Of a DNA stretch of 64,000 nucleotides, positions 2,378 to 64,000 are shown piece after piece. The notes under the pieces are model-generated. The model saw only the letters and a program-made list of their open reading frames with translations. It searched no databases and had not been told where the DNA came from. The stretch is from [Ruminococcus] torques ATCC 27756. Lineage in GTDB: Bacteria > Bacillota > Clostridia > Lachnospirales > Lachnospiraceae. Numbering within the stretch: position 1 is the stretch's first letter; each line of letters begins with the position of its first letter. The stretch lies in the NCBI RefSeq assembly GCF_000153925.1, contig NZ_DS264346.1, positions 1,700-65,699 of the forward strand, read 5' to 3'. The position numbers and the translations under genes were made by a program.

Positions 2378-2407
2378 TTGCAAAAAATGGTCAGAAAATT
2401 ATATAAT
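2378..2407 (+). promoter_or_regulatory. Sigma-A type promoter for the response-regulator gene
   Basis: A -35-like TTGCAA (2378-2383) and a perfect -10 TATAAT (2402-2407) are separated by 18 bases. The predicted start of transcription is about 135 bases upstream of the regulator's ATG. The short frame that begins on the -10 itself (2408-2500) has no ribosome binding site downstream of the start of transcription and is not called. Confidence 0.65.
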
Positions 2408-2548: not shown

Positions 2549-3328
2549 ATGAAAGTTATTATTGCAGATTACGATGAAGAAGCTATCCGTCTTTTTGAAG
2601 AACAATGCAAACAATTTTCATATGTAGAGCTGAGCGGGAAGTTTAATGATTCTGCGGAAACGCTTAAATATGTTTCCAGACATAGAGTGGAAGCGGCTTT
2701 TATAAATATCGAATTAAATGGTATGGACGGACTTCAGCTCGGAGAAAAGTTACGGGAATTAAATCCTAAAATAGTTCTTGTATTTTTTATAGAACATACA
2801 GAATATATATTGGAGGCACTTCGGATAAAAGCGGATGGTTATATGATCAGGCCGTATACTATGGAAGATTTAACATGGACTATGGGAAATGCAAAACTTC
2901 TCAGTCGGCGACAGAAGAAGCCGGCATATATTAGGACATTTGGCCGATTCGACTTATTTATTAATGGAGAACTTGTGATATTTTCCAATAAAAAGGCAAA
3001 AGAACTGCTTGCGTTATGTGTGGACAATAAAGGCGGAGTTGTGACAATGGAAGAAGCCGTTGACAAACTCTGGGAGAATCGTTTGTACGATGAAAAGGTA
3101 AAAAATCTGTATCGCAGGGCGGTTATGGATTTGAATAAGATATTCAGTACATATGGGATTAAAGATGTATTTGTTAAGAAACGGGCTGCCTGTTGGATTA
3201 ATTATGCCAATGTGGACTGTGATTATTATATGTGGATAGAAGAAAATATATTATCCGGTACAGGGAAAAGTGTTAGAAGCGGCATTGATACCCGGGGGGG
3301 GGTATATGACGGAGTATTCATGGGCTGA
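2549..3328 (+). CDS. Response regulator with degenerate receiver and BTAD/winged-helix output, frameshifted at a G9 tract
   Basis: This is a predicted transcription regulator. Residues 1-115 resemble a two-component receiver domain, and residues 125-215 resemble an OmpR-like winged helix plus the start of a BTAD (SARP-like) region; this architecture is familiar from Lachnospiraceae. The receiver is degenerate: the phospho-acceptor Asp position holds Asn53 (FINIELNGMDG) and the conserved Lys-Pro is Arg-Pro (MIRPY), so control by phosphorylation is doubtful. The frame as read ends at 3328 after a run of nine G (3294-3302). With eight G the frame would continue to 3377 and end in YMTEYSWAEETNARINRYKF, which looks like a proper C-terminus for this family. 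No histidine kinase gene is nearby. The gene lies directly upstream of the giant adhesin gene in the same orientation, so the adhesin may be a target (inference). A ribosome binding site (AAGGA) lies 12 bases before the ATG. Confidence 0.75.
   Translation: MKVIIADYDEEAIRLFEEQCKQFSYVELSGKFNDSAETLKYVSRHRVEAAFINIELNGMDGLQLGEKLRELNPKIVLVFFIEHTEYILEALRIKADGYMIRPYTMEDLTWTMGNAKLLSRRQKKPAYIRTFGRFDLFINGELVIFSNKKAKELLALCVDNKGGVVTMEEAVDKLWENRLYDEKVKNLYRRAVMDLNKIFSTYGIKDVFVKKRAACWINYANVDCDYYMWIEENILSGTGKSVRSGIDTRGGVYDGVFMG
3294..3302 (+). repeat. Poly-G tract (G9) causing a frameshift
   Basis: Nine consecutive G near the 3' end of the regulator gene. Removing one G restores the longer frame ending at 3377. 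The tract may be a slippage-prone contingency locus or a sequencing or assembly error. Confidence 0.9.
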
Positions 3329-3392
3329 AGAAACAAATGCCCGAATCAACAGGTATAAATTCAGGGAAGATAACTAAAAACAGAGAAAAAGT

Positions 3393-3445
3393 AAAACCGA
3401 TTTATTGTAGAAATTATTAAAATTTCGACAATAGATCGGTTTTTC
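3393..3445 (+). terminator. Terminator after the response-regulator gene
   Basis: A long inverted repeat (AAAACCGATTTATTGT pairing with ACAATAGATCGGTTTT, one G-T pair) has an 18-19 base loop and ends in a T run. It lies 16 bases after the restored stop codon at 3377, which supports the longer reading of the gene. Confidence 0.8.
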
Positions 3446-3717: not shown

Positions 3718-6700
3718 GTGACTATGAGGAAAAAGAAAAATAGTAAACTGCGTTCAGCGCTGGCGATTTTTCTTGCCGGGGCTATGGTGCTCGGAATGAT
3801 ACCCGGTGGTATGGGACAAGTCTATGCCTCAGATTCGACTCCGACTCCGGCGGTAGCGTTTGATGAAACCTCTGTGTCAGATCCGTCTACTGTGGATACT
3901 TGGAATCAGGTTGTAAAAGATTCGACAGAAAACATCGGACGTATCTGGACAGATAAAACAGTACTCACAGAGGATATTCAGCTTGAGGGCGGAAGCAGAC
4001 CAAGTGTCAAAAAAGGCGATTCTGATTTCTTAGTTGGATTATCGGCATTGTCATCTACATCGAATACAGTAAAGACGGTTAGCAGACCGTTGGATATCGT
4101 ACTGGTAGTAGACACGTCAGGTTCTATGGAAAATTCACCGCATATGGGAACTAGGCCTGAGAGTGAGCGATATCGATATGAAGAGATATATGCAGGAAAT
4201 CTTAGTGAAACAGAAGATCAAGAATATTACACAAAGGATGGAGGCAAAATTACTTCTGAAGGTCAAAAAATTCTGTTTTGGTGGGAATTTACGCACTGGG
4301 AATTAAATGGACAAACGGTCGAGCCGAAGATATCCGCAGAAGATTCCAATCCAAATCACATCCAATTTTACGAGAGAAGAGATTTGGGAACAAATATTAC
4401 GAAGCTGCAAGCTCTGCAAAATGCAGTAAATAACTTTGTGGAACAAACAGCTAAAATGAATGATTCCATTGATGATATAAAATTACAGCATCGAGTTTCC
4501 CTTGTAAAATTTGCAAGTGATGAAAGTGACAACATTGGAAATGATTTTATAAATAACAATTATAATCGTTCACAAATTGTAACGGAATTAAAGTCTTACA
4601 CAACGAAAAATATTTCGGACTTGACCTCAACAGTGAATAGTCTGATTGCAGCAGGAGCAACTCGCGCAGATTTTGGATTGAATCAGGCGCAGAGAGCATT
4701 TCAGCTTGGAGGAACCAGAGAAGGGGCGCAGAAAGTTGTCGTTTTCTTCACAGATGGTCAGCCGACGTCGAATAGTGACTGGAGTAACAGTGTTGCAGCT
4801 GCCGCCATTACGAACGCAAAAGAGTTGAAGGATGCGAATGCTTTGATCTACAGTATCGGCGTGTTCCGGGATGCGAATCCGAACGATACAAATACAAGCG
4901 CTGGTAACTTTAACGGATATATGCATGCGGTTTCTAGCAACTATCCGGATGCGACTGCTACAAGCAGTACACGACCTAATCGCTATTCTTGTACATTAGG
5001 AAAACGCACAGATAATTCTGATTATTATAAAGCGGCAACGGATGCAGATGAATTGAATAATATATTTAATGAGATTTCATCGGATTTGGAAACAGGATTT
5101 GGTTTTCCGACACAGACAGAAGGGTATGATCCGGGTAAGGTAGGATATATTACATTTACCGATCAGCTCGGCGAATATATGCAGGTGGATGAATTTAAGA
5201 GTTTGGTCTTTGCAGATCAGATATTCGATCCGGTAGGAGAACCGGTTACTGAAAACGGTGTTACTACATATAAATATGAAGGAAGTGCAACAGGAGATAC
5301 AGAACTTTATCCGAACGGTAATGTAAAAGATATTATCGTTCAGGTGAAGAAAGGGGCAGACCTGAAAACCGGTGATACAGTTACAGTACAGATTCCGGCA
5401 GGTTTGATCCCGCTTCGTCACTTTACGTTAGATACAGACAGTGACGGAAATAAAACGATGGATATACAGGAGGCATATCCGCTCCGTATCTTCTATGGTG
5501 TCAGCATCAAGCCGGAGGTCCGGGAAAGAATTGCCGACGGACTAAACCCGAATGATGCAGATGACGAGGCGCTTCAGCAATATCTGAACGCTCATAATGA
5601 GAATGGAGTTCCGTATTTCTATTCAAACTATTATAACGGACAATACATAGATCCGAATGGAAAGACATTGGGCAATACGACTGCTTCTTTCCAACCGGCA
5701 AAGAAAAATACATTTTATTATTTTACAGAAGATACTCCGATTTATACAGATAAAGATTGTACAATGGCAGTAAAGAACGAGCCGAGTGCGGATCAGACGT
5801 ATTATTATAAGAGACCGTATGTGCAGTTAAACGGAGGTCAGGTTGAAGAAATCGACGGCAAGGTAGCCTTTACGGGATCAAACTTCCAGCAGGCAAGTGC
5901 GAACTTCGGTATAAATGACAAGGGAGAATACTTTATCAAGTCCGGTTCTGCACGATTGACAAGAATCGATGCGTTGATAGATGATAAAACAGAGAACATA
6001 ACAAATACGGCGGATGTAGTGATCGATCCGATTTGGGATAATATCAATAATCCCGATTACTTAAATGTTTATCTGGGAAATAACGGAAGGCTTGCGCTTG
6101 AGCTTCCGGGCGCTCTTGCAATCAGCAAAGATGCCCGCGTGGCAGCGAATAAAAATCTGAATGCGGATGAAATATTAAAAGATAAAAAGTTCACATTTGA
6201 GATCAGTATTCCGTCTATGAAGGGAAAAACAGTCAAAGCGGAAGTACGAAATGCGCAAAATGAAATTCAGGGAAAAGCATTTGAACTGGAATTTGATAAG
6301 ACCGGAGCTGCCAAGTATCAGATTAAAGATGACGAAACGCTGTATATTCATGGATTGGATAAAGATGCGCAATATACCGTAACCGAAAAAGAACTGCCGA
6401 AAGGATTTGAACTGACGGCAGTTGATAAAAAGGCGGACGCAAAAGAGGCGGCTGGAACGATCGTTTCAGGAAAATCTGTAAAACATGTGTTTGAAAATAC
6501 ATATGACGTAGATGAAATCACGCTTGCCGAAACTGATTTCGCAAGTTATGAGAAACAGTTTGACCGGTGGGATATTGCAGATAAGTTCCGAATCGAATTG
6601 ATTCCGACAACAGAAGGAGCTCCGCTTCCGAATGGAGCTGCTGATGGTAAAAAAGGCGTTGAGGTAACAGAAAAAAATTCATCAGGAAACTTCGGAGAGA

Positions 6701-9700
6701 TCACATTTTCTCATCCCGGAGTATATGAATATGAAATTCAGGAGAAACAGCCGGCAAGTGCAATACCGGGAGTTATATATTCTCTGGCATCCTATACATA
6801 TCGGGTAACGGTGACCGATAATGGAGACGGAACATTATCCGCTGTGGCAGAAATGGAAAAAACGGCTAATGACGACGGGGCGTCAGTAGGAAATACGCCG
6901 ATTCCGGTTGAGAATAAAACAGCGGTATTTGTAAATGATTTCCATGCAGATTCCGCAACGACATCTATACTTGCAAAAAAAGTGTATGCAGATGAAAGCG
7001 GAGCGAATCCGTTGAAAAACGGAATGTTTGAATTTAAACTCAAAGCGACCGGAGACAACGCAGAGCAGGCGCCAATGCCGACCGGAGAGAAGGATGAAAA
7101 TGGTTATATCCATGTAGTCAACGTCGGAACAGGAATTACATTCGGTAACATGGTGTTTACAGAGGAGAATGTCAGTGATACACCGTGGACGTATGAAATT
7201 GCAGAAGTGATTCCGGAAACTGCGGTTAATAATGGAGACGGAACTTATACTTTAAACGGTATAACTTATAAGGCACAAACATATTCCGTATCTATTATGG
7301 CAAAGGCACAAGGTTCAGGCGAGGATGCGTATATTGTCATAGAAAAGACATACAGCAAAGCAGAAGGAGCAGTTGCTGAAGATCAGGTTGTATTCAACAA
7401 CAGTTATGAACCGAAGCCTATAGTACTTCCGGGTGAGGGAGAATCAGCGGTACAGGGAAGAAAAACTTTAGTCGGACGCGATTCTCTTGTGGATGAAGAG
7501 TTCTCCTTTACATTGAGTGCTGCAAATACCGCAGCAAGAACCGGTCTTAAAGAAAATTTCATTATCTTCAATGGAGATACGGCTCAGGATACGATGCAAA
7601 AAACGGTGAACGGACTGACGAATAATCAGGCTGCAACATTTGATTTTGACAGTATCGAGTTCAAACGTCCGGGAACATATGTATTTAGTGTAGTAGAAAA
7701 TGCCCCGGAAAACGGAAACGGAATGGTATATGACCGACATACAGCAAGAGTACGGGTTATTGTGACAGATGAGAACGGAGAATTAAAGGCAGAAACAGCT
7801 TACTATAACGGTGAAGGCGTAGATACTGATGCGGCTGCATTTGTCAATCTGTATACAGCGTCTGCAACTTACGGAACAGGCGCGGAACTGATTGTAGAAA
7901 AGACGTTATCCGGCCGTGCTCTGAAAGCGGGCGAATTTACATTTAAAATCGAGGCGGCAGACAGTGATACTGTAAATGCTGAGACAGCGGATGCTAAATT
8001 GTCAGATTCTGACAGAGAATTTACAAACACATCAGGAGCGGCAGACGGTGTTGCATCTCGGATCTTTGACAAATTGTCAGGGGTGACCTTTACACAGGAT
8101 GATGCAGGAAAGACGTTCAGCTACGTTCTTTCAGAGGCAGCAGGAAATTTACCGGGAGTTACATACTCAAAGGACACATATCGCTTTGATATTACGGTAG
8201 TAGATAACGGCGACGGAACGATGCATACAGAAACGAAAGTTACAATGCAGGGAGATGGTGTGACAGCAGAAGCTCATCATGATAGTTCAGACGGAAGAGA
8301 TACGATAGTAGCAGGTTTTACGAACGGATATCATGCAGACAGCGTGGAAGTAGACTTCACAGAAGCGGCAGCATTGTTCCACAAACGACTGGTTGGACGC
8401 GACTGGAAAGAAGATGATTCGTTTACATTCAATCTTACGGCAGAAGATGGAACTCCAATGCCGAAAGATACGGAAGGCAATGATGTAACAAGCGTTACTG
8501 TATCACAGAAAGGCGGAACGGAAGATGGTACGGATGTACCGTTTGGATTCGGAAAGGTCACATATGATACAGTCGGAAAGTATTCCTACACTGTTACAGA
8601 AGAGAATGCAGGACAAACCATTAACGGAGTGACTTATAGTAAGAATGAGGCAAAAATAATAGTTGATGTTTCTGATCCGGGAAATGGGCAGTTGACCGCA
8701 AATATACAGTCCTATAGTACGATATTTATTAATGAATACGGCGCTTCTCTGAACCTCGGAGCGGCAGGCGGACTTGCAATTACAAAAACAGTGACAGGTC
8801 ATGCATTAGCGAAAGAGCAGTTTGAATTTAAGGTAAAAGCGGTTAAGACAGACACTGCTACAGCAGATGAAGCGGCAGAACTCTTTGGATTTAAAGAGGG
8901 AGAGACAGAGGTTACATTTAAGAACAACGAAGCGGCGGCAGATGGACAAACTGTAACCATGTTAAAAACAGATACGAACTTTACGTTGAAGAATCTGGGT
9001 AAAGTATACAAATATGAAGTATCGGAAATGAATGATAAGAAACCGGGATATACATACGATGATACTGTTTATACAGTAGAATTATGGGTAACAGATGATG
9101 GAGACGGAACATTAACGCTTCATACAAAGGTGACAGATGAAAAAGGCAGTGTCATAAGCGAAGAGACAAGCAATGAAACAGATCAAAAGCAGACTGTTCT
9201 CGCATTCAACAACAGCTATGCCGGAAGCGGTGTTCTTGACGGATCAGCAAATCTTGCAGGAACAAAGAAGATGGATGGTCCATGGGAAGCAACCGACAAA
9301 GATTTATCTGGCTTCCGGTTCACTATCACGGGCGGTGACGAAGCAACGAATGCGGCAATTACAGCAGGCACAGTTGTATTACCGCAGAGTGTAACGGCAA
9401 CTTCTGATGCAGACGGCAACTTCAACTTTGGAGATATTACCTTTAATGAGAAGGGAACTTACAAATTCACAGTCAGTGAAGTTGTACCGGCAGAGGGAGA
9501 CAAGATTCCGGGAGTTGCCTATAATGCAGAGACGGTTACGATTATCGTTAATGTTACGGATAATGATGACGGAACATTAACAGCGGCGCTGGCAGAAGGA
9601 TCACAGGAATTAATATTTACGAATACTTATGCAACAACGCAGGATGCAACATTTACGCCATCCGTAGTGAAGGAGGTAAAGGGGCTTAATGCGAAAGAGA

Positions 9701-12700
9701 TCTTTACATTCAAGCTGAGCGCAGCCGATGAAGCAACGAAGGCGGCGATTGACAGTGGAACACTGACCGGAATTGGAACGACGGCAGATCTATACAGCTC
9801 AGAGAAAACGACAACTAAACTGATTCCAAAGGATGGAACAGAGCAAGTAGACTTTAATGCGCTGACATTTAAGAAAGCCGGAACTTATAAGTTTACCGTT
9901 CAAGAGACCAATGCAAATGCACCGACAGGATGGACGTATGATTCTCATACATATGAGATTATTATTAAAGTAACAGACCAGGATTCTGTATTGAAGGCAA
10001 CACAAGAGATCAATGCTGACGGGGTGACCAATTCACAAATCTTCATCAATAAATTTGAAGCATCGACAACTTACGGTGATGAAGGCGGACTGAATGTTAC
10101 AAAGACATTGAATGGACGTACACTTGCAGCAGATATGTTTGATTTCACAATTACCAGTGAAGCAACTGACAGTGTAACTGCAGAAGAAGCAGAAGCAAAA
10201 CTTGCAGAGGCTGATAAGAGCTTTAAGAATACTGCACCAGGCAAAGACGATGTCGCGGTGATGAGTAAGCTTAGTGACGTGAAGTTTGATGAAACAGACA
10301 TTGGTAAGACATATCAATACTCCGTTCGCGAGGCAGCAGGCACCGATACAAAGTATACGTATGATCAAGTATCAGCGACCGTTGCAATTACGGTACAGGA
10401 GAAAGACGGAGAACTGTATACGGTAACAACCGTAACCAAGGGAGACGATAGTAAGGAATATAGTTCGGCAGAAAGTAAAGCTACAGCAGTAGCGCCGTTC
10501 GTAAACAGCTATACACCGGATATCGTAACCATTGAGCCGGGAGCATTTGCCGGAAAGGTAACGAAAGTTCTGAAAGGAAACCGTGACACAGGTTTAGCGG
10601 CAGGTGAATTCAATTTCCAAATGAAGATTACACCGGCAGATGATACAAGCAGCATGGACAATGTTGTACTTCCGGAGGGAGCAGTTGGAGATACAATCAC
10701 ATCGGCAAACGCGGCAGACGGTTCTGTAAGCTTCGGAAATATTCAGTTCAAAGCGGCAGGAAACTATCATGTAGAGATTACGGAAGTAGTTCCGGAATAT
10801 GCTGATCCGAATATGACGTATGACAAGCATACCTTTAGCTATGACATTGCAGTGACTTATAATGCGGCGGAGGGAACGTTGTCAGCGAAAGTCGCGGATG
10901 GAAGTCAAGCAGGAAGCGCGACATTTACTAATATTTACGAGGCGGAAGACGCGAAGGATGTTATTAACACAGAAGAGCCGTCCACGTCCGTAAATGGCAA
11001 GATTGTCGGTGTCGGCGATCAGTTGACTTATACTATCGACTGGGTAAATAATGCAGTAGATGAAACAGGCGCTCCTGCGAAAGCGGAGGTGAAGATCACA
11101 GATATTGTACCGAAAGGTACGGAATATGTAAGCGCAGATACGAATGGAGTTTATGAAGAGACTTCAAAGACAATCACCTGGACGCTTGGCGAGCAGGAAG
11201 CAGGAGCTTTCGGAACGGTAAGTTTTGTAGTAAAAGTGCTTGACAGCGCAGGCGGAACAGCGGTAGAAAATACGGCAGAGATTACCATTGGAGACAACGA
11301 TCCAAATCAGACCAATACAGTTACCACGAACGTTCCGGGCAAAGATTCTGTAGTAGAAGGCGACGGAGAATTACAGGTCGGCAAGGTTTTGACCTATACC
11401 ATTTCCTATAAGAACCCGGAAATTGAAGCGGCGACAGTTATCATTACAGACAGCATTCCGGAAGGTCTTGATTATGTAGACGACAGCGCGGGCGAATATG
11501 CATCGTATAACGCAGAGACACGTATGCTGACATGGAAGATTGCAGATGTTCAGCCAGGAGCAGACGGAACGGTTACATTTGATGCTAGAGTAAATGAAAG
11601 CGCCGAGACAGTAGTTGAGAACAAAGCGACGATCCAGATCGGCGAAAATGGACCTGAATATGAGACGGATACCGATCGGAAAGAGATTTCGAAAGATGGA
11701 AATCTTTCCATCAGTAAAACCATCGTACTGACAGAAGGTCAGGGCACAGGGATCGACAAAGAGAAAGAGTTTACATTTATAGTAGCGCTTAAGGATGCCA
11801 AAGGTACGGCATTGACGAAAGAATATGCTTACGCCGTAACAGGCGAAAGCGGAGAGGAAATCAAGAAAGGTAATGCTGCAGACGGTACCGAGATTTCCTT
11901 CCAGCATGGACAGAAGGCAGTGATTACCGGACTTCCGGCTGGCGCGCAGTATACGGTAACTGAAAAAGAAGTTGACGGATACACCACAACTGTAAACGGA
12001 AACGCCGGCAATGCGGCAAGCGGTACGATTACTTCAAATACAACTGCAGAAGCAAACTTTACGAATACGTACAGCGTGGCAGGAAGTCTTAGCGGAAGCG
12101 AAGCGCTTAAAGTGACGAAGGAACTGACAGGAAGAAAATGGCTTGATACAGATACGTTTAGCTATACGTTGACGGCAGCGGATGAAGCGACAGTGGAAGC
12201 CATTGAGAATGGATTTATCACGCTTCCGGAAAATGCAGGCGGACTTGAGATTACAAAAGCATCTGCAGGACATCAGGCGGCATTTGGAGATATCCAATTT
12301 ACGATCGCCGGAACGTTCAAGTTCAATGTTACGGAGCAGCCAAGCGGTATCGCCGGTATTACGGACGATCAGGAAGCGGAAAGAACTGTGGTTGTGAAAG
12401 TGACAGACAAGAAAAACGGAACGCTCGAAGCAGCCGTTGTCGAAGGCGAGAGTGAGAATCTGACCTTTATCAATACATATGGCGCAGGCACAGGAGACGA
12501 GGATATCGCGGCGAAGATCGAGGCGTCGAAGAAACTGACCGGACGTGATATGAAGGCGAATGAGTTCCGATTTGAAATTGTGACAAGAGCGGCAGAAAAT
12601 CCGGAAGGATTCAAGGAAACTTTCGCAGCGGCAGGAACGAATACAGAAGCTGCGGAAGGAGCGGAAGGAGCAGTAAAATTTGCAGGAAATGACGGCGCTC

Positions 12701-15700
12701 TGACGTATACGACGGAGTCGCTTGATCAGGCAGTAAAAGACGGATATGCCGTAAAATCTGAAAATGATGACGGTTCGGATGTATGGACGGTCAGCTATAC
12801 CGCAAGAGAGATAACAGACAAACTTCCGGGCGGAGTAACCGCAGTAGAAGGAAAGACGTCTTTCGACTTTACGGTCGTAGTGACAGATCGTACAGATGGA
12901 ACATTAACTGCACAAGTACAGCTTCCGGAAGGCGGTATTGTATTTGAAAATGCTTATACTGCCGAAGACACAGAGGTCAATACAGATCCTGCGGACGCAA
13001 AATCATACTTTAATAAAGTGCTGACAGGGCGCGGTTGGTTAGGAACAGACGAGTTTACATTTACCATTACGCCGCAGGATGGCGCGCCGGCGGCGGAAGA
13101 CGCGGCGGCAGACGGTACGAAAACAGTAACAGTAACGTCTGACAGTGCAAAAGCAGGAGAAGCTGTTCTGTTTGGTTTCGGAAAGATCCGGTTTACAGAT
13201 GAGGATATGAACGGAGCTGCCGCAGGACAGGATGGAACAAGGACGAAAGAATTCCGTTACACAGTGAAAGAAAATCCGCTTCCGGATGGAAAGATGACGG
13301 GAGTGACGATCGACGGACATGAGGCGACATTGAAGATCACAGTATCGGATAACCTGGAAGGTAAATTGGAAGTAACAAACATCGCCTCCGAAAACGGAAC
13401 ATTTACAAATGAGTACAAATCCCAGCTTGATTATGCGGCGGCAGGAGGACTGCAGATCACGAAGGCGCTGAACGGAAGAGATATGGAAAAAGATCAGTTC
13501 ACCTTTACAGTGACGCCGAAAGCGACGGAAGGAAGCACGACTGCGGAAGAAGCGGCGGAAAAATTCGGACTTGCGAATGCGGCAAATACATATAAGAATG
13601 AAGCCGCAGAAGCAGGCGCAGTGACGACGATCAACGTACTCGACGGAAAGAACGTTACATTTACGCAGGCAGACGCAGGCAAGACGTTTACCTATGAAGC
13701 GGCGGAGACGGCGGGAACAAATACAGCTTATACGTATGATACAGATGTAAGAACCGTAACAGTCAAAGTAAAAGATAATAACAATTCGACGCTGACGGTA
13801 ACGACACGGGTTACGAAAGTAAAAGACGGTCAGGAAGTGATCGTGGACGAGCAGGAAGTAACAACAGGAGAAGTCGGTCAGAAAAAAGCGACTATATCGT
13901 TTGTAAATACATACAACGACGAACCGGTCGAGCTTGGCGGAGAAGGAAGCGTGAAGATCAACGCGACAAAGACGCTGGCAAACAGACCGCTGACAGACGG
14001 AGAATTTACGTTTAGAATATTTGATAAAAAAGGAAATCCGGTTGTCGGCAAAGACGCCGAGGCGACAGGTACGAACGCGGCGGACGGAAGCATTACGTTT
14101 GCTCCGGTAAGCTACGATACAGACAGACTAATGGCAGATGTGAAAGCAGGAATCGCATTCGTAGACAAAAAGTCTCAGGCTCCGGCATATGTCTACACAT
14201 ATGACTATACGGTGACGGAAGACAACCCGTCCGGCGGAGTGACAGGTATTGCGACGACATTTGCGATCCAGGTGATCGTTACAGACCGCGGCGACGGAAC
14301 GCTGGCGATCGAAGTGAAATATCCTGACGGAAAAGATTCGCTTCCGTTTGAGAATGTATACGGCAAGTCTGCAAATGCAGAGATCGCGCTGAACGGAAAG
14401 AAAGTATATGAGAAAGAATCCGTCAACGCGCCGGATATAGCAGGAAAGTATACATTTACGATCACAGGAACAGATGAACTTGGAAATCCTGCGCCGATGC
14501 CTGTAAAAGACGGCAAAGTCGTGACAGAGACGACGAACGATGCGGCAGGAAATATCGATTTCGGAAAACTTGTCTATACGATGGAAAATGTATTTGGTTC
14601 AGCGGAAAGTCAGGATGAGCAGACAAATGCAAATCAGGATGTGGAAGCAGGAGAAGACCCGGCGGATACAAATCAGAATGCGGAAGCAGGACAAGACCCG
14701 GCGGCAGCCGATACAGCGGAAGATAAGACGGCGGCAGAAGATGCGGCAGACGCGGCAGAAAACGCGGCGTCAGAAGAAACGGCGGGAGACGGAACAGAAG
14801 GAACGAAAGCGCCGGAAACAGATGAAACAGACATTGAAGCAAACGGCGGATCGAACGCCGGATCAAGCGGAGAAGATCAGGACAAAGAAGCGGCAGGAGC
14901 GGCTTCGGCGGACGGCGGAAACGTCGTTGATCAAGCCGGAACAATGAACGCGCAAGAAGCAGGTCAGGCGAACAGATTCAGCGAGCCTCGGACAAAAGTT
15001 TATACTTATAGAGTGACAGAGTCCGGCAGCATGGCGGGCGTGACGAACGATTTGGCGGCTGCGGAAGGAAAGACGTTTACAGTAACCGTGACAGACAACG
15101 GCGACGGAACGATCAGCGCCGTTTCCTCATGGCAGAATGATTTCGCATTTGAGTTTACAAACACATACCGTGTAAATCCGACAGATTACAGTGTGAATGA
15201 ACATATCAGCATCAAAAAAGAGCTGACTGGACGTGATCTGCACGAGGGAGAATTTACATTTGAACTCATCGATGAGTCCGGAAATGTTGTGGCTTCGGCA
15301 GTGAATGAGGCGGACGGAACGGTTCGTTTCGGAGCTCTGCATTACACAGAAGCAGGCACATACAATTATGTGATCCGCGAGGTGGAAGGTACAGCCGGAG
15401 GCGTACAATACGATTCGGCAGAGCATACGGTGACTGTCATTGTGACAGATAACGGCGACGGTACATTGAGCGCGAAAGCAGAGACGAAGAGCGGAGAAGA
15501 TATGAACGGCATCGTATTCCGAAATATCTACGAAGCTCGTCCGGCGTCGGTAACGCTCGGAGCTTCCAAGACTTATAAGGGAGCGGAGCTGAAAGACAAA
15601 CAGTTTACGTTCGTGCTCAAAGACAAGGATGGAAACGTTGTGTTTGAAGCGAAGAACGGCGCAGACGGACAGGTTATGTTTGAGACGCTGATCTATGACC

Positions 15701-16047
15701 GGGCGGGCGTATATGAATACACAATTTCTGAGAAAAATGATGGGCAGAAAAATGTAACATACGACGAAACCGTATACAATGTAACGATTACGGTTACAGA
15801 CAACGGAAAAGGCAATTTGATCGCAGAGGCGGTATACGGAGACGGCAGGACGCCGCAATTCGTTAATACATATGTGAAACCCCAAAATCCGGTGAAACCG
15901 GAACAGCCGACCCCGACTGTAAAACCACAGAATCCGGGAGCGGTGCAGACCGGAGATCATAATTCGTTTGCGGGAACGCTGGGAATGGCGGCGCTTGCTT
16001 TAGCGGTGGCAGCAGGTGTTATGATCAGAAGAAAGAAAAAATCATAA
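3718..16047 (+). CDS. Giant wall-anchored surface protein: vWA domain plus about 20 Ig-like isopeptide (pilin-type) modules
   Basis: The product is about 4,109 aa. It begins with a signal peptide (residues 1-38). A von Willebrand A domain covers roughly residues 120-465, with MIDAS motif DTSGS at 132-136 and FFTDGQPTS. A long tandem array of Ig-like modules follows, most ending in F(V/T/N)N(T/S/L)Y. These resemble Spy0128/FctA-type pilin domains, in which a Lys at the start (ITKTLNGR-like) bonds to the terminal Asn with help from a Glu (YxVxE). Two DUF11-like modules lie near residues 2420-2660, and two CnaB-like modules occur (near 810-935 and 2660-2790). An Ala/Glu/Asp-rich insert lies at about 3627-3757. 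The C-terminus has VQTGD (4076-4080), a hydrophobic segment and RRKKKS, a non-canonical sortase signal. The start is GTG at 3718, with AAAGG 7 bases upstream; ATG at 3724 is possible but lies 13 bases from it. It probably acts as a tip-type adhesin or stalk on the cell surface. The ligand is unknown. Confidence 0.9.
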   Translation: MTMRKKKNSKLRSALAIFLAGAMVLGMIPGGMGQVYASDSTPTPAVAFDETSVSDPSTVDTWNQVVKDSTENIGRIWTDKTVLTEDIQLEGGSRPSVKKGDSDFLVGLSALSSTSNTVKTVSRPLDIVLVVDTSGSMENSPHMGTRPESERYRYEEIYAGNLSETEDQEYYTKDGGKITSEGQKILFWWEFTHWELNGQTVEPKISAEDSNPNHIQFYERRDLGTNITKLQALQNAVNNFVEQTAKMNDSIDDIKLQHRVSLVKFASDESDNIGNDFINNNYNRSQIVTELKSYTTKNISDLTSTVNSLIAAGATRADFGLNQAQRAFQLGGTREGAQKVVVFFTDGQPTSNSDWSNSVAAAAITNAKELKDANALIYSIGVFRDANPNDTNTSAGNFNGYMHAVSSNYPDATATSSTRPNRYSCTLGKRTDNSDYYKAATDADELNNIFNEISSDLETGFGFPTQTEGYDPGKVGYITFTDQLGEYMQVDEFKSLVFADQIFDPVGEPVTENGVTTYKYEGSATGDTELYPNGNVKDIIVQVKKGADLKTGDTVTVQIPAGLIPLRHFTLDTDSDGNKTMDIQEAYPLRIFYGVSIKPEVRERIADGLNPNDADDEALQQYLNAHNENGVPYFYSNYYNGQYIDPNGKTLGNTTASFQPAKKNTFYYFTEDTPIYTDKDCTMAVKNEPSADQTYYYKRPYVQLNGGQVEEIDGKVAFTGSNFQQASANFGINDKGEYFIKSGSARLTRIDALIDDKTENITNTADVVIDPIWDNINNPDYLNVYLGNNGRLALELPGALAISKDARVAANKNLNADEILKDKKFTFEISIPSMKGKTVKAEVRNAQNEIQGKAFELEFDKTGAAKYQIKDDETLYIHGLDKDAQYTVTEKELPKGFELTAVDKKADAKEAAGTIVSGKSVKHVFENTYDVDEITLAETDFASYEKQFDRWDIADKFRIELIPTTEGAPLPNGAADGKKGVEVTEKNSSGNFGEITFSHPGVYEYEIQEKQPASAIPGVIYSLASYTYRVTVTDNGDGTLSAVAEMEKTANDDGASVGNTPIPVENKTAVFVNDFHADSATTSILAKKVYADESGANPLKNGMFEFKLKATGDNAEQAPMPTGEKDENGYIHVVNVGTGITFGNMVFTEENVSDTPWTYEIAEVIPETAVNNGDGTYTLNGITYKAQTYSVSIMAKAQGSGEDAYIVIEKTYSKAEGAVAEDQVVFNNSYEPKPIVLPGEGESAVQGRKTLVGRDSLVDEEFSFTLSAANTAARTGLKENFIIFNGDTAQDTMQKTVNGLTNNQAATFDFDSIEFKRPGTYVFSVVENAPENGNGMVYDRHTARVRVIVTDENGELKAETAYYNGEGVDTDAAAFVNLYTASATYGTGAELIVEKTLSGRALKAGEFTFKIEAADSDTVNAETADAKLSDSDREFTNTSGAADGVASRIFDKLSGVTFTQDDAGKTFSYVLSEAAGNLPGVTYSKDTYRFDITVVDNGDGTMHTETKVTMQGDGVTAEAHHDSSDGRDTIVAGFTNGYHADSVEVDFTEAAALFHKRLVGRDWKEDDSFTFNLTAEDGTPMPKDTEGNDVTSVTVSQKGGTEDGTDVPFGFGKVTYDTVGKYSYTVTEENAGQTINGVTYSKNEAKIIVDVSDPGNGQLTANIQSYSTIFINEYGASLNLGAAGGLAITKTVTGHALAKEQFEFKVKAVKTDTATADEAAELFGFKEGETEVTFKNNEAAADGQTVTMLKTDTNFTLKNLGKVYKYEVSEMNDKKPGYTYDDTVYTVELWVTDDGDGTLTLHTKVTDEKGSVISEETSNETDQKQTVLAFNNSYAGSGVLDGSANLAGTKKMDGPWEATDKDLSGFRFTITGGDEATNAAITAGTVVLPQSVTATSDADGNFNFGDITFNEKGTYKFTVSEVVPAEGDKIPGVAYNAETVTIIVNVTDNDDGTLTAALAEGSQELIFTNTYATTQDATFTPSVVKEVKGLNAKEIFTFKLSAADEATKAAIDSGTLTGIGTTADLYSSEKTTTKLIPKDGTEQVDFNALTFKKAGTYKFTVQETNANAPTGWTYDSHTYEIIIKVTDQDSVLKATQEINADGVTNSQIFINKFEASTTYGDEGGLNVTKTLNGRTLAADMFDFTITSEATDSVTAEEAEAKLAEADKSFKNTAPGKDDVAVMSKLSDVKFDETDIGKTYQYSVREAAGTDTKYTYDQVSATVAITVQEKDGELYTVTTVTKGDDSKEYSSAESKATAVAPFVNSYTPDIVTIEPGAFAGKVTKVLKGNRDTGLAAGEFNFQMKITPADDTSSMDNVVLPEGAVGDTITSANAADGSVSFGNIQFKAAGNYHVEITEVVPEYADPNMTYDKHTFSYDIAVTYNAAEGTLSAKVADGSQAGSATFTNIYEAEDAKDVINTEEPSTSVNGKIVGVGDQLTYTIDWVNNAVDETGAPAKAEVKITDIVPKGTEYVSADTNGVYEETSKTITWTLGEQEAGAFGTVSFVVKVLDSAGGTAVENTAEITIGDNDPNQTNTVTTNVPGKDSVVEGDGELQVGKVLTYTISYKNPEIEAATVIITDSIPEGLDYVDDSAGEYASYNAETRMLTWKIADVQPGADGTVTFDARVNESAETVVENKATIQIGENGPEYETDTDRKEISKDGNLSISKTIVLTEGQGTGIDKEKEFTFIVALKDAKGTALTKEYAYAVTGESGEEIKKGNAADGTEISFQHGQKAVITGLPAGAQYTVTEKEVDGYTTTVNGNAGNAASGTITSNTTAEANFTNTYSVAGSLSGSEALKVTKELTGRKWLDTDTFSYTLTAADEATVEAIENGFITLPENAGGLEITKASAGHQAAFGDIQFTIAGTFKFNVTEQPSGIAGITDDQEAERTVVVKVTDKKNGTLEAAVVEGESENLTFINTYGAGTGDEDIAAKIEASKKLTGRDMKANEFRFEIVTRAAENPEGFKETFAAAGTNTEAAEGAEGAVKFAGNDGALTYTTESLDQAVKDGYAVKSENDDGSDVWTVSYTAREITDKLPGGVTAVEGKTSFDFTVVVTDRTDGTLTAQVQLPEGGIVFENAYTAEDTEVNTDPADAKSYFNKVLTGRGWLGTDEFTFTITPQDGAPAAEDAAADGTKTVTVTSDSAKAGEAVLFGFGKIRFTDEDMNGAAAGQDGTRTKEFRYTVKENPLPDGKMTGVTIDGHEATLKITVSDNLEGKLEVTNIASENGTFTNEYKSQLDYAAAGGLQITKALNGRDMEKDQFTFTVTPKATEGSTTAEEAAEKFGLANAANTYKNEAAEAGAVTTINVLDGKNVTFTQADAGKTFTYEAAETAGTNTAYTYDTDVRTVTVKVKDNNNSTLTVTTRVTKVKDGQEVIVDEQEVTTGEVGQKKATISFVNTYNDEPVELGGEGSVKINATKTLANRPLTDGEFTFRIFDKKGNPVVGKDAEATGTNAADGSITFAPVSYDTDRLMADVKAGIAFVDKKSQAPAYVYTYDYTVTEDNPSGGVTGIATTFAIQVIVTDRGDGTLAIEVKYPDGKDSLPFENVYGKSANAEIALNGKKVYEKESVNAPDIAGKYTFTITGTDELGNPAPMPVKDGKVVTETTNDAAGNIDFGKLVYTMENVFGSAESQDEQTNANQDVEAGEDPADTNQNAEAGQDPAAADTAEDKTAAEDAADAAENAASEETAGDGTEGTKAPETDETDIEANGGSNAGSSGEDQDKEAAGAASADGGNVVDQAGTMNAQEAGQANRFSEPRTKVYTYRVTESGSMAGVTNDLAAAEGKTFTVTVTDNGDGTISAVSSWQNDFAFEFTNTYRVNPTDYSVNEHISIKKELTGRDLHEGEFTFELIDESGNVVASAVNEADGTVRFGALHYTEAGTYNYVIREVEGTAGGVQYDSAEHTVTVIVTDNGDGTLSAKAETKSGEDMNGIVFRNIYEARPASVTLGASKTYKGAELKDKQFTFVLKDKDGNVVFEAKNGADGQVMFETLIYDRAGVYEYTISEKNDGQKNVTYDETVYNVTITVTDNGKGNLIAEAVYGDGRTPQFVNTYVKPQNPVKPEQPTPTVKPQNPGAVQTGDHNSFAGTLGMAALALAVAAGVMIRRKKKS

Positions 16048-59765: not shown

Positions 59766-59775
59766 GGGGGGGGGG
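59766..59775 (+). repeat. Poly-G tract (G10) in the promoter region of a surface glycosidase gene
   Basis: Ten consecutive G in an AT-rich intergenic region, about 85 bases before the start codon. Its place between candidate promoter elements would suit expression switching by changes in tract length. Confidence 0.95.
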
Positions 59776-59857: not shown

Positions 59858-62800
59858 ATGAAAAAGAGAATGTTCCATAAGGGAATGGCTGCGGTTCTCG
59901 CGGTATCGCTGACAACCGGCGGGGCTCTTCCGTTTATGGCTCAGACGGTTCATGCAGAAGACACTGCGGCAGAGCAGGGGCAGACGCCTGAGAAAAAGAG
60001 CGGTACTGTAACTCTTGAGAAGAAGAACGATGGTACGTATGTCTTCGGAAACGAATATCTGAAAAGAACGTTCAGTTTGAGCGCAGACAAAGTATTGTCA
60101 ACAAAAGAGATTACAAACTATCGTACCGGAACTCCGACTGTGTTCACACCGCAGGCGGGCAGTGAAGAGTTTATAATCAACACGCTTGACAATAATTCCG
60201 AAGGGGAAGACAGCGGATTCGTAGCGCCTAAGAAAAAGTTGGAGACGACAGGTTGGAAGGCAACGGCGGACAGCGTTGCAGAGAATGAAGCGCCGAATGG
60301 CGGAGCAGACAAGATGTTCGACGGTGATAATAATACATATTATCATTCTAAATATGGGGATGGCGTGGATGCAGCGGTGAAAGAGTATCCGCATAATATT
60401 TATGTCGATTTTGGTTCGCAGAAGTCGTTCCAGTCTCTTCGCTATCAGCAGAGAGTGGATCAAAATGGAACTCCCACAGTGAGCGGGCATGTGAAAGGTT
60501 ATAAGATTTATACCGGGGATAGCATCGATGCTCTGAAAACAACAGACGGTGCAAAACTGGTTGGTCAAGGTTCTTTTGAAAATAAAAAAGAAACATATGT
60601 GAACTTGGACGAAAAAGTGACAGCGCAGTATGTTCGTATTGAGTTTGTTGATTGTTATGAACCGTCAGCTGCAAATGTAAGCAAAGACGTAGCCTGCTGT
60701 TCGGAATTTGACTTTTTTGAAGATACAGCGACGTTCCCTGTAGTGGATAACGCGACACAGCTTAAGACGAGCGAAATGAAAGTGCAGGGCGAACCTCAAC
60801 TGACAGAAAAGGACGGAGTGAAAACGCTGACGTTTACGTTTGAGCCGAAGAGAGTAAGAGGTGTAGATTACACGATCAAAGAAGTGATCACGATGAAAGA
60901 CGGAGATTCTTTCATGAGAAAACACCTCGATATTTCTGTTGGGGAAGGGCAGGCAGAAAAAGCGAAGATCGATTATATCGATCTGGAAAATATGAACATC
61001 GCACAGACTGATCTGAAACAGAATGAATACTGGACGATCAGTGACACTATGGCGGACAATCCTGACATGGGCGGAATGAAAGGCGATTATCTGGAGCTTG
61101 GACAGCCGTACTATGTAGGTGCGATGTACTGGGGATGTGAGTTCCCGGAGACAGAGAACAAAATTAAAGGTTCTAATTCCTTTATCCGTTACTACTATGG
61201 AAAATCATTGAAATCCGATGATAAGTTTGAGTATAACGAAGGAAACGAAAACGGAAAGATGACGACGTGGGACGCTGTCGTAGGAGCTGCCCGAAGCAGA
61301 GATTACAGCGTGACACAGAGCGATTTCTATGAATATATCGAGACGATCGCAATAGATACGGAGTTCCGTCAGCAGTACAACTCATGGTACGACAACATGA
61401 AGGAGATCACGGACGAGATTATTCAGAAGAGTTTCTTCGAGATTGAGAAAGGATTCACACAGTACGGGATAGCTCCTCTTGATTCTTATGTTGTAGACGA
61501 TGGATGGACGAATTACAGCTCCTTCTGGGATTTTAATAATAAGTTTCCGAATGAGCTTTACAACTCCAGTCTGCAGGTGAATCAGCTTGCGTCCAACTTC
61601 GGACTGTGGCTTGGACCAAGAGGCGGATATGGAACAGAAAGAACGATTGCGAATTGGATTGCAAGTAATGGTTTGGGTTCTGTAAATAATCAATCGGGTG
61701 GAGATATTAATATTTCTGATGCGAGATATCTGACGAAATTGAATAAAGATGTTTTCTGCGAGTATCAGGATAAGTTTGATATCAACTACTGGAAACTGGA
61801 TGGAATGCTCTTAAATCCATCGACAGAGCAGTCCGAATATTATGTGACAGGTAATCCGCTTTATACGATTTCAGAGACATACGAGAGATGGACGGATATT
61901 TTTGAAGATATGCGTGACAACAGAGCGGGAAAAGACCTTTGGCTTAATATGACTTCTTACACAAACCCGAGTCCGTGGCACGTTCAGTGGGTGAACAGCG
62001 TATGGATGCAGAATACGGGAGATACAGGTTATACGGATAGCTTTAATGCAACGGATGAAGAAGCGATGCTTACATACCGTGACAACGCTTATTATAACTT
62101 CTTAAATGAAAGAGAGTGGCAGCTTCCGAACAAATATTTTTATAACCATGACCCGGTTTACGGATTGACTGCAAACGATGCTTATCATAGACCGGATATC
62201 AAATATACAGATGATGAGATGAGAAATCACCTGTATATGCTCGGAACGAGAGGAACGGCATTCTGGGAGTATTATTATAGTTACTCCATGTTTGATGACA
62301 ATAAATGGCAGATCAACGCGGAAGCGGCAAAATGGATCGAAGACAATTTCGACATTCTTCAGAAATCACAGATGTTCGGCGGAAAACCGAATGACGGAAA
62401 TGTTTACGGATATTCCTGCTGGAACGGAAAAGAGGGAATTCTCTCGATCAGAAATCCGAAGAATGAAGCACAAAGTTATAAAGTAACTTATGACAGACTG
62501 ATCGGCGTCGGAGAAGATCTCGGAACTGTTTACGGAAAGGTTGTCGTAGGAGATCAGAGACACCAGACAGATGAACCGCTTACATATGGCAAGGAAGTGA
62601 CATACACGCTTAATCCGAAGGAAGTTTTGATCCTGCAGTTTGGTGAGAAAGATGAAACTCCTGCGAAAATCCTTTCTGTAGAAGGAAACGGAAAAGAAGC
62701 AGAAGTTGAATTTGACGAGACGATCCGTACGCCGGAAGCGGGAATGTTTAAGGTAGACGGATACGAAGTGACAAAGGCAGAATTGAAAGCCGACAGACGT

Positions 62801-64000
62801 ACAGTGAAACTGACTTTGGATAAGGAACTGAAAGATGCCCGGACAGTGAGCGTAAGTGTAGACGGCGTGAAAGATACTGTCGGAAATACTTCAAAAGTAA
62901 GCGCGCAGAATGATGCGTTTAAAGACGGCATCATAACAGGAGTGATCAGCGATGATCTGAAAGACGGAGCTGTATCGACAAAAGCGAAATACTCTGTCGA
63001 CGGACACGGCGGATTTACTGTAACAGGTAAGATCAAGACAGATTCAAAAGACGTGGTACTTGCAGAGCAGAAAGGCGCTTATAAAGTCGGCATTGACGGC
63101 GAAGGATATCTGACGTTTGAGTTTAACAATATGAAGATCACATCGAAATATGATCAGAAGACGGTTGATAAAGCAAACGACAGCTACACAAGCGAGACGA
63201 AAGGAATTGCGGCTGACGGTAAAGAGCATCAATTCTCTGCTGTAAAAGAAATTAACGGAATGATCAAACTTTACCTTGACGGAAAAGTGGTTGCTTCAAC
63301 ATACAGCGAAGATAAAGCAAATCCGGAGATCGCAAAAGGCGAAACGATATTTGCGCAGGGTCTGACAAAAGACGAAGTTTCTTATATTACAGTTCTCGAC
63401 AGATCGCTTGCATATGATGAAGTGAAAGATCTGATCGATACAGAAGATAATGTTGTTCTTGCAAAGAACAATCCGAAAGTAAAAGTTACCGCTTATGATG
63501 CAACTGCTAATACGGCAGTGGCAGAGAAACCGGACAGACCGTTTAATATGGTAAACGACGGCGTGAAGAGTACGGCGAATTATCTGGAGCTGACAGATAC
63601 GAGCGACAGCCAGAACCATTCCCGTTACGTGCAGTTCGATCTCGGAGACGAGTATGATCTGACGAAGATCCATATGACAAGATACTGGGATGGCTCAAGA
63701 AAATACGGACCGACAGTGATCCAGTTAAGTACAGACGAGAACTTTGCGGCAGACAAAACGACAACGGTATATAACTCCGATAAAGACAATGTACATAAAC
63801 AGGGCGCGGGCAAAGATGAGTTTTATGTCGAGACGGCAGCAGGAAAAGAGATGTGGAACGCAGAAAACAGTGAACCTGTAACAGCTCGCTACATCCGTGT
63901 CTATGTAAACGGAAGAGAAAATAATCAGGGTACGTCTGATCATATCGTCGAGTTCGAGGCTTACGGTGCGAAAGACGGCGGAGCGATCATCCGTCCGGAC
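59858..64000 (+). CDS. Second secreted GH36-like glycosidase with CBM32-like modules (partial, runs off the window)
   Basis: The frame is open for 1,381 codons from ATG 59858 to the window edge, so the C-terminus is missing. A signal peptide (about 1-36, AAVLAVSLTTGGALPFMAQT) is followed by an F5/8-type domain (about 125-290). The GH36-like catalytic domain has DDGW (547-550) and WKLDG with predicted nucleophile Asp648. An Ig-like domain, a LamG-like domain and a further F5/8-type domain near 1205-1370 follow. The layout matches the protein at 37379 module by module and long stretches are similar (SYVVDDGW, FPNELYNSS, NPSPWHVQWVNSVWMQ), so the two are paralogues. Substrate: probably alpha-linked Gal or GalNAc in host glycans (inference). 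The ribosome binding site GAAGGAGAG precedes the ATG. Confidence 0.88.
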   Translation, partial: MKKRMFHKGMAAVLAVSLTTGGALPFMAQTVHAEDTAAEQGQTPEKKSGTVTLEKKNDGTYVFGNEYLKRTFSLSADKVLSTKEITNYRTGTPTVFTPQAGSEEFIINTLDNNSEGEDSGFVAPKKKLETTGWKATADSVAENEAPNGGADKMFDGDNNTYYHSKYGDGVDAAVKEYPHNIYVDFGSQKSFQSLRYQQRVDQNGTPTVSGHVKGYKIYTGDSIDALKTTDGAKLVGQGSFENKKETYVNLDEKVTAQYVRIEFVDCYEPSAANVSKDVACCSEFDFFEDTATFPVVDNATQLKTSEMKVQGEPQLTEKDGVKTLTFTFEPKRVRGVDYTIKEVITMKDGDSFMRKHLDISVGEGQAEKAKIDYIDLENMNIAQTDLKQNEYWTISDTMADNPDMGGMKGDYLELGQPYYVGAMYWGCEFPETENKIKGSNSFIRYYYGKSLKSDDKFEYNEGNENGKMTTWDAVVGAARSRDYSVTQSDFYEYIETIAIDTEFRQQYNSWYDNMKEITDEIIQKSFFEIEKGFTQYGIAPLDSYVVDDGWTNYSSFWDFNNKFPNELYNSSLQVNQLASNFGLWLGPRGGYGTERTIANWIASNGLGSVNNQSGGDINISDARYLTKLNKDVFCEYQDKFDINYWKLDGMLLNPSTEQSEYYVTGNPLYTISETYERWTDIFEDMRDNRAGKDLWLNMTSYTNPSPWHVQWVNSVWMQNTGDTGYTDSFNATDEEAMLTYRDNAYYNFLNEREWQLPNKYFYNHDPVYGLTANDAYHRPDIKYTDDEMRNHLYMLGTRGTAFWEYYYSYSMFDDNKWQINAEAAKWIEDNFDILQKSQMFGGKPNDGNVYGYSCWNGKEGILSIRNPKNEAQSYKVTYDRLIGVGEDLGTVYGKVVVGDQRHQTDEPLTYGKEVTYTLNPKEVLILQFGEKDETPAKILSVEGNGKEAEVEFDETIRTPEAGMFKVDGYEVTKAELKADRRTVKLTLDKELKDARTVSVSVDGVKDTVGNTSKVSAQNDAFKDGIITGVISDDLKDGAVSTKAKYSVDGHGGFTVTGKIKTDSKDVVLAEQKGAYKVGIDGEGYLTFEFNNMKITSKYDQKTVDKANDSYTSETKGIAADGKEHQFSAVKEINGMIKLYLDGKVVASTYSEDKANPEIAKGETIFAQGLTKDEVSYITVLDRSLAYDEVKDLIDTEDNVVLAKNNPKVKVTAYDATANTAVAEKPDRPFNMVNDGVKSTANYLELTDTSDSQNHSRYVQFDLGDEYDLTKIHMTRYWDGSRKYGPTVIQLSTDENFAADKTTTVYNSDKDNVHKQGAGKDEFYVETAAGKEMWNAENSEPVTARYIRVYVNGRENNQGTSDHIVEFEAYGAKDGGAIIRPD

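Follow-up and report, generated by a model that had tools for sequence, protein, structure and literature searches.

Homopolymer phase variation is documented for pathogens and, as regards gut commensals, for the pili of Bifidobacterium, as far as the literature searched extends; no report of it in Lachnospiraceae or gut Firmicutes was found in the open-licence papers searched, as judged by their titles and the openings of their abstracts. Genes with a phase-variable C-terminus are described in Neisseria gonorrhoeae and Helicobacter canadensis, where a homopolymer towards the 3' end determines which of three frames encodes the C-terminus, and tract lengths vary between strains (PMC5320596). 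The locus presented here shares this layout, but those genes belong to other phyla, and the examples named there include no pseudo-receiver regulator. In Bifidobacterium breve, a G-tract switch acts on sortase-dependent pili, and its slippage has been measured (PMC9187656). Our locus resembles it in the gut commensal host, the intragenic G tract and the connection to surface adhesion (compare the G9 pilin of L070, below); however, the B. breve tract lies at the 5' end of pilin genes, whereas ours is a 3' tract in a regulator and is known from sequence alone. Campylobacter offers slippage in a response-regulator system (FlgR/FlgS), a 3'-end tract (cj0045) and lengths of about G8-G11, as here, although those of flgR/flgS are short runs of A/T that are described as irreversible, and FlgR has a kinase partner (PMC8355987). 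According to the same source, most C. jejuni tracts are G9 or G10, with an insertion bias at G8 and a deletion bias at G11 and above. SabA of Helicobacter pylori has both promoter and coding tracts (PMC2715451), and Clostridioides difficile is known to have a phase-variable signal-transduction system (PMC6837544). Finally, aspartate-less receivers resemble our regulator in lacking the phospho-acceptor Asp and in being orphans (PMC12632262, PMC4395418); the activation of pseudo-receivers has been called a mystery (PMC12632262).

The window, that is, the whole stretch of 64,000 nucleotides of [Ruminococcus] torques ATCC 27756 that we analyzed, carries a run of nine G towards the 3' end of the coding region of a regulator, at codon 249 of 259. 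Our best reading of this locus, which we hold with reasonable confidence, is that a pseudo-receiver regulator undergoes C-terminal phase variation as part of a poly-G contingency system. We know of no pseudo-receiver switched by a homopolymer. The features involved, in window coordinates, are the following.

2378..2407, + strand: promoter-like site TTGCAA-18-TATAAT before the regulator, from a promoter scan; such sites are no commoner in the region than in shuffles.
2549..3328, + strand: regulator ORF as in the window, 259 aa, with the short end VYDGVFMG; Response_reg in Pfam.
2549..2902, + strand: receiver domain, aa 1-118, with Asn53 at the phospho-acceptor position and Arg101 for the conserved Lys, from the alignment.
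2924..3226, + strand: winged-helix part, aa 126-226, from AlphaFold/Foldseek matches to OmpR/PhoB-type regulators; no Pfam family.
3294..3302, + strand: G9 tract, in the linker that joins the winged-helix part to the tail and is the least conserved segment.
3303..3377, + strand: conserved tail, out of frame in the window and carried by the natural alleles P0005-P0011, from alignments and frames.
3393..3443, + strand: hairpin followed by a T run, terminator-like by folding; absent from a simple terminator scan.
3718..16047, + strand: 4,109-aa adhesin with VWA, 19 FctA stretches and an LPXTG-type anchor; candidate target.
59766..59775, + strand: second window tract, G10; another giant surface-protein ORF begins 83 bp further on.
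59858..64000, + strand: start of this 1,723-aa surface-type ORF (F5/8 type C, Big_2), which runs past the window and equals L072:1558-6729.

The tract at 3294-3302, the stop at 3328 and the alternative stop at 3377, all reported in an earlier note on this DNA, are present in the window. Translation of the three frames that follow the tract places their stops at 3309, 3328 and 3377, and the C-termini differ between frames. The 259-aa ORF ends in DTRGGVYDGVFMG before its stop; the frame leading to 3377 reads YMTEYSWAEETNARINRYKFREDN after the tract, the same end as in aligned homologues. A tract of this length is beyond chance. Compared with a first-order model of the window sequence, G/C runs of 4, 5 and 6 are scarce (96, 13 and 4 observed vs 145, 31 and 7 expected) and runs of 7 or 8 are absent, while the window has one run of 9 and one of 10 (0.10 runs of at least 9 expected).

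Response_reg, above cut-off, is the sole Pfam domain found in the regulator, and no Pfam family was found for the winged-helix part. The earlier note had assigned the protein to a receiver-BTAD family: the receiver stands, but BTAD (SARP-like) membership must be rejected, with no Pfam match at E up to 5 in either P0005 or P0022, and with no more than 25 residues after the tract. An AlphaFold model of the database allele P0005, built from 88 aligned sequences, has a pLDDT of 91.5 and a pTM of 0.71, so that domain placement is uncertain. The best Foldseek matches that span both domains are winged-helix response regulators (TM-score about 0.4 by query length); the receiver matches that of MrkE (TM 0.92 by target). 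The putative DNA-binding output domain thus resembles a winged-helix domain by fold match.

The phospho-acceptor position, placed by comparison with MrkE, is Asp in 71 of the 88 aligned sequences, Glu in 11, Asn in 5 and Ser in 1, and the conserved Lys is replaced by Arg in P0005 alone. At nine homologous loci from eight other genus genomes, an ORF of about 460-507 aa lies directly upstream, which we read by eye as a probable LytS-type kinase; in eight of the nine (not L118), the downstream ORFs look PqqD-like and radical-SAM-like, again by eye. The window copy, unlike these nine loci, has no kinase gene adjoining the regulator: its neighbors are tRNA genes upstream and the adhesin downstream. 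By these residues and neighbors, we take the regulator to be an orphan pseudo-receiver. Scanning genome contigs with P0005 retrieved four relatives at 39-51% identity, and no homologue of at least 58% identity was found in the genomes searched.

What the frame change removes is well conserved. We compared 88 sequences chosen from the 120 listed homologues, leaving out 32 that were partial, fused, duplicate or frame-broken (P0013 and P0015, in which the tail is absent by frame, are among these). Tail residues Y253, Y257, W259 and E261 are invariant in 88 of 88. In the P0005 model, residues 258-275 form a helix, and pLDDT is 93 for residues 251-260 and 90 for 261-270, against 55 for the linker (241-250) and 66 for the last six residues. 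Compared with P0014, identity is highest in the winged-helix part (88%), followed by the receiver (81%), the tail (72%) and the tract-bearing linker (42%). In the window frame, eight unrelated residues, VYDGVFMG, replace the tail.

One may also hypothesize that an orphan regulator without kinase and phospho-Asp is simply drifting towards a pseudogene, the tract being a neutral hot spot. The changed phospho-Asp and conserved Lys and the absent kinase neighbor would fit such decay. However, full-length frames persist in relatives of 58-82% identity, and the winged-helix part is still better conserved than the receiver in eight of nine comparisons (P0015: 81 vs 80%). We therefore consider decay unlikely.

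Natural alleles provide a further line of evidence. A protein search gave 298 matches, of which 120 were listed and 24 of these inspected. Among the matches listed, at least 10 representatives align over 97% or more of the query at 99-100% identity and count as the same protein; three have the short end and seven the tail. The short end, as in the window, is found in P0002, P0003 and P0004 (368, 561 and 18 members); the tailed forms are P0005, with one extra glycine (130 members, 37 contigs), and P0006-P0011. Cluster member counts are not allele counts, the makeup of cluster members not being shown. Tailed alleles have 275 and 276 aa, as against 259 in the window form, and allele protein lengths fit tracts of 9, 11 and 8 G, as deduced from the proteins. 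Part of this set may be noise, since none of P0006-P0011 has more than two members and a different residue occurs within the tract in P0004, P0010 and P0011. Scanning viral contigs with the tract flank for DNA of other alleles gave no match.

Beyond the species, the orthologues P0013, P0014 and P0015 of sister species (82, 80 and 78% identity) end in three different frames. P0016 (68% identity) has no glycine run at the tract position, and the homologue of G005 has a G9 of its own, in frame, after the tail.

These data bear on the main rival named in the earlier note, a homopolymer sequencing or assembly error, according to which tract length is fixed in the strain and the frame break is an artefact. 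G tracts are indeed hard to sequence, and deposited lengths can deviate from true distributions (PMC9187656). Yet two representatives that have the short end count 368 and 561 members, and one that has the tail counts 130; this weakens the rival, and the sister-species orthologues are likewise in different frames. Since alleles occur in both states and these orthologues in three frames, the protein sequences favor true slippage over a lone sequencing error, and we regard an error as quite unlikely.

We thus favor C-terminal phase variation of the pseudo-receiver regulator. Strand slippage would alter the length of the G9 tract and thereby the reading frame of the last 25 codons: one frame would keep the conserved tail helix, the window frame would end in the short form, and the third would stop sooner. 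The regulator would presumably not be phosphorylated in the usual way; because the phospho-Asp is absent and no kinase gene adjoins, tract length may be its main on/off input. The short form is most likely impaired, in which case a population would hold active and inactive states of the regulator, and switching within a clone may be reversible. The earlier note had proposed that the tract switches the regulator and, through it, the adhesin. Its first part holds in that the tract is slippage-prone and swaps the end of the regulator, as seen in alleles and orthologues in different frames; for the second, the adjacent adhesin is the obvious candidate target, and its control by the regulator a candidate link.

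Downstream of the regulator, the hairpin has 22 pairs (-23.7 kcal/mol, z -8.6) and leads into a T-rich end; folding thus agrees with the terminator that the earlier note saw beyond the 3377 stop, although the simple scan lists none. The adhesin starts beyond this strong hairpin. A cis effect, in which moving the stop from 3328 to 3377, near the hairpin, alters read-through into the adhesin and the protein tail is secondary, would suit the short distances (16 nt from the 3377 stop to the hairpin, about 340 bp to the adhesin start) and the action of a 3'-end tract on the next gene suggested for C. jejuni cj0045 (PMC8355987), but it needs no conservation of the tail, which is strongly conserved as protein in tract-less homologues, and we find it improbable.

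The regulator tract has company in its genome. The 58 genus genomes together contain 151 tracts of at least nine G (median 2); G000, the genome of the window, has the most, 14, and the next highest has 9. The earlier note had missed these 14 tracts, the second window tract at 59766-59775 and the pseudo-receiver without kinase neighbor. We sorted the 14 by position and Pfam. Two lie in near-consensus promoter spacers, one before an Rrf2 gene that precedes a 1,449-codon open frame (cut by the end of the stretch) and one before an F5/8-C/Big_2 protein. A third precedes the -35 box of a GH123/GDSL/BNR protein, the -10 having two mismatches. Two further tracts are intergenic, ahead of surface genes, and show no clear promoter fit: one before an Rrf2 gene and a Rib/YSIRK adhesin, the other before the F5/8-C protein of the window, where the G10 gave no fit as a spacer promoter (more than four mismatches). 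Five are coding: besides the one in the regulator, they fall in a pilin, just past its signal-peptide-like start, in genes for an acyltransferase and for ATP-grasp sugar transfer, and at the 3' end of a histidine kinase. The remaining four have no clear target.

Several of these loci deserve mention on their own. In L065, a G9 (5003-5011) and a G8 (5486-5493) flank the Rrf2 regulator gene ahead of the Rib/YSIRK adhesin; in L064, an Rrf2 gene is likewise paired with a tract and a giant ORF. The pilin (L070:4898-6415; 505 aa; GramPos_pilinBB, SpaA) has its G9 in frame. The ATP-grasp gene is out of frame in G000 and in frame in the representative P0242 (99% identity, 591 members); small differences beside the tract mean that the two are not pure length alleles. 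The histidine kinase with a G9 at its 3' end (L074:2855-5023) shares this end with P0124 (88%), and P0126 (84%) is without the run; no second end was found among the 4 of 120 listed relatives compared. Judging by the sources of kinase relatives at 84% and 60%, the genus is probably Mediterraneibacter.

For the genus survey, we pooled 136 of the 137 tracts from other genomes with the 14 from G000 and dropped duplicate contexts, leaving 148. Seventeen fall in the spacer of a TTGACA/TATAAT promoter with at most two mismatches, where 0.9 are expected with shuffled flanks and the opposite strand gives none. At one mismatch the count is 13 vs 0.07 expected; at up to three, 22 vs 6.3 (shuffled flanks) and 8 (opposite strand). 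By a home-made rule, 11 of the 17 precede signal-peptide-like proteins, and two precede flgB. Another six tracts immediately precede the -35 box of a promoter that has no more than one mismatch, where 0.07 are expected and the opposite strand gives none. Each precedes a cpsB-like gene, in different genomes and species (G047, G050, G060, G069, G002, G021). With NCBIfam Cps4B, all six genes give matches that stay under the curated cut-off (165.7-196.7 of 400 bits); one of them was also checked in Pfam and passes the cut-off of CpsB_CapC. These G9-G11 runs (L143, L153, L187, L236, L241, L256) are a candidate for a capsule-operon switch conserved in six species. The other 124 tracts include 52 situated within an open frame of at least 150 codons on the G strand, and many of the 124 are without evident role. 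A looser pattern gave 32 matches in 16 of the 58 genomes vs 13 control matches (6 of them in G008) and is weaker evidence than the tract-by-tract survey. At least 11 of the 136 genus tracts are no further than about 100 bases from the end of a contig (L122, L124, L126, L152, L171, L195, L200, L209, L214, L217, L248), as expected if their length is mixed or hard to assemble.

Across the order, the pattern TTGACA-N4-12-G8-N0-2-TANNNT occurs in 32 of 344 genomes, which represent 23 of 150 genera; the 43 rows comprise 41 distinct sites, and the control gave no match. Slippage at such promoter tracts would, from their position, change spacer length. In Neisseria, the poly-C/poly-G tracts of promoter-spacer switches lie between -35 and -10, for example at fetA and porA (PMC5320596), as do those at our 17 genus sites and in the 32 order genomes; however, Neisseria is of another phylum, and our spacer sites were recognized in genomic sequence.

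Taken together, these tracts raise the possibility, for which we see about an even chance, of a poly-G contingency system across a major order of gut commensals: G8-G14 tracts that lie in consensus promoters, immediately before them or within genes would randomly turn adhesins, pili, glycosidases and the operons for capsule and flagella on or off, and a pseudo-receiver regulator without kinase input would be switched by slippage that removes its tail. If so, the surfaces of common gut Clostridia would be diversified in the same way as those of pathogens and Bifidobacterium, and adhesin or capsule expression could not be read from gene presence alone. The regulator itself offers a testable control mechanism for pseudo-receivers, tail-removing slippage being, if true, one answer to how those without a kinase are controlled.

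The two genus sites at flgB are of interest for flagellar operons. In two species (L226:1666-2058 and L244:1767-2159), a G9 lies in a near-consensus spacer before this gene, making it a candidate flagellar switch.
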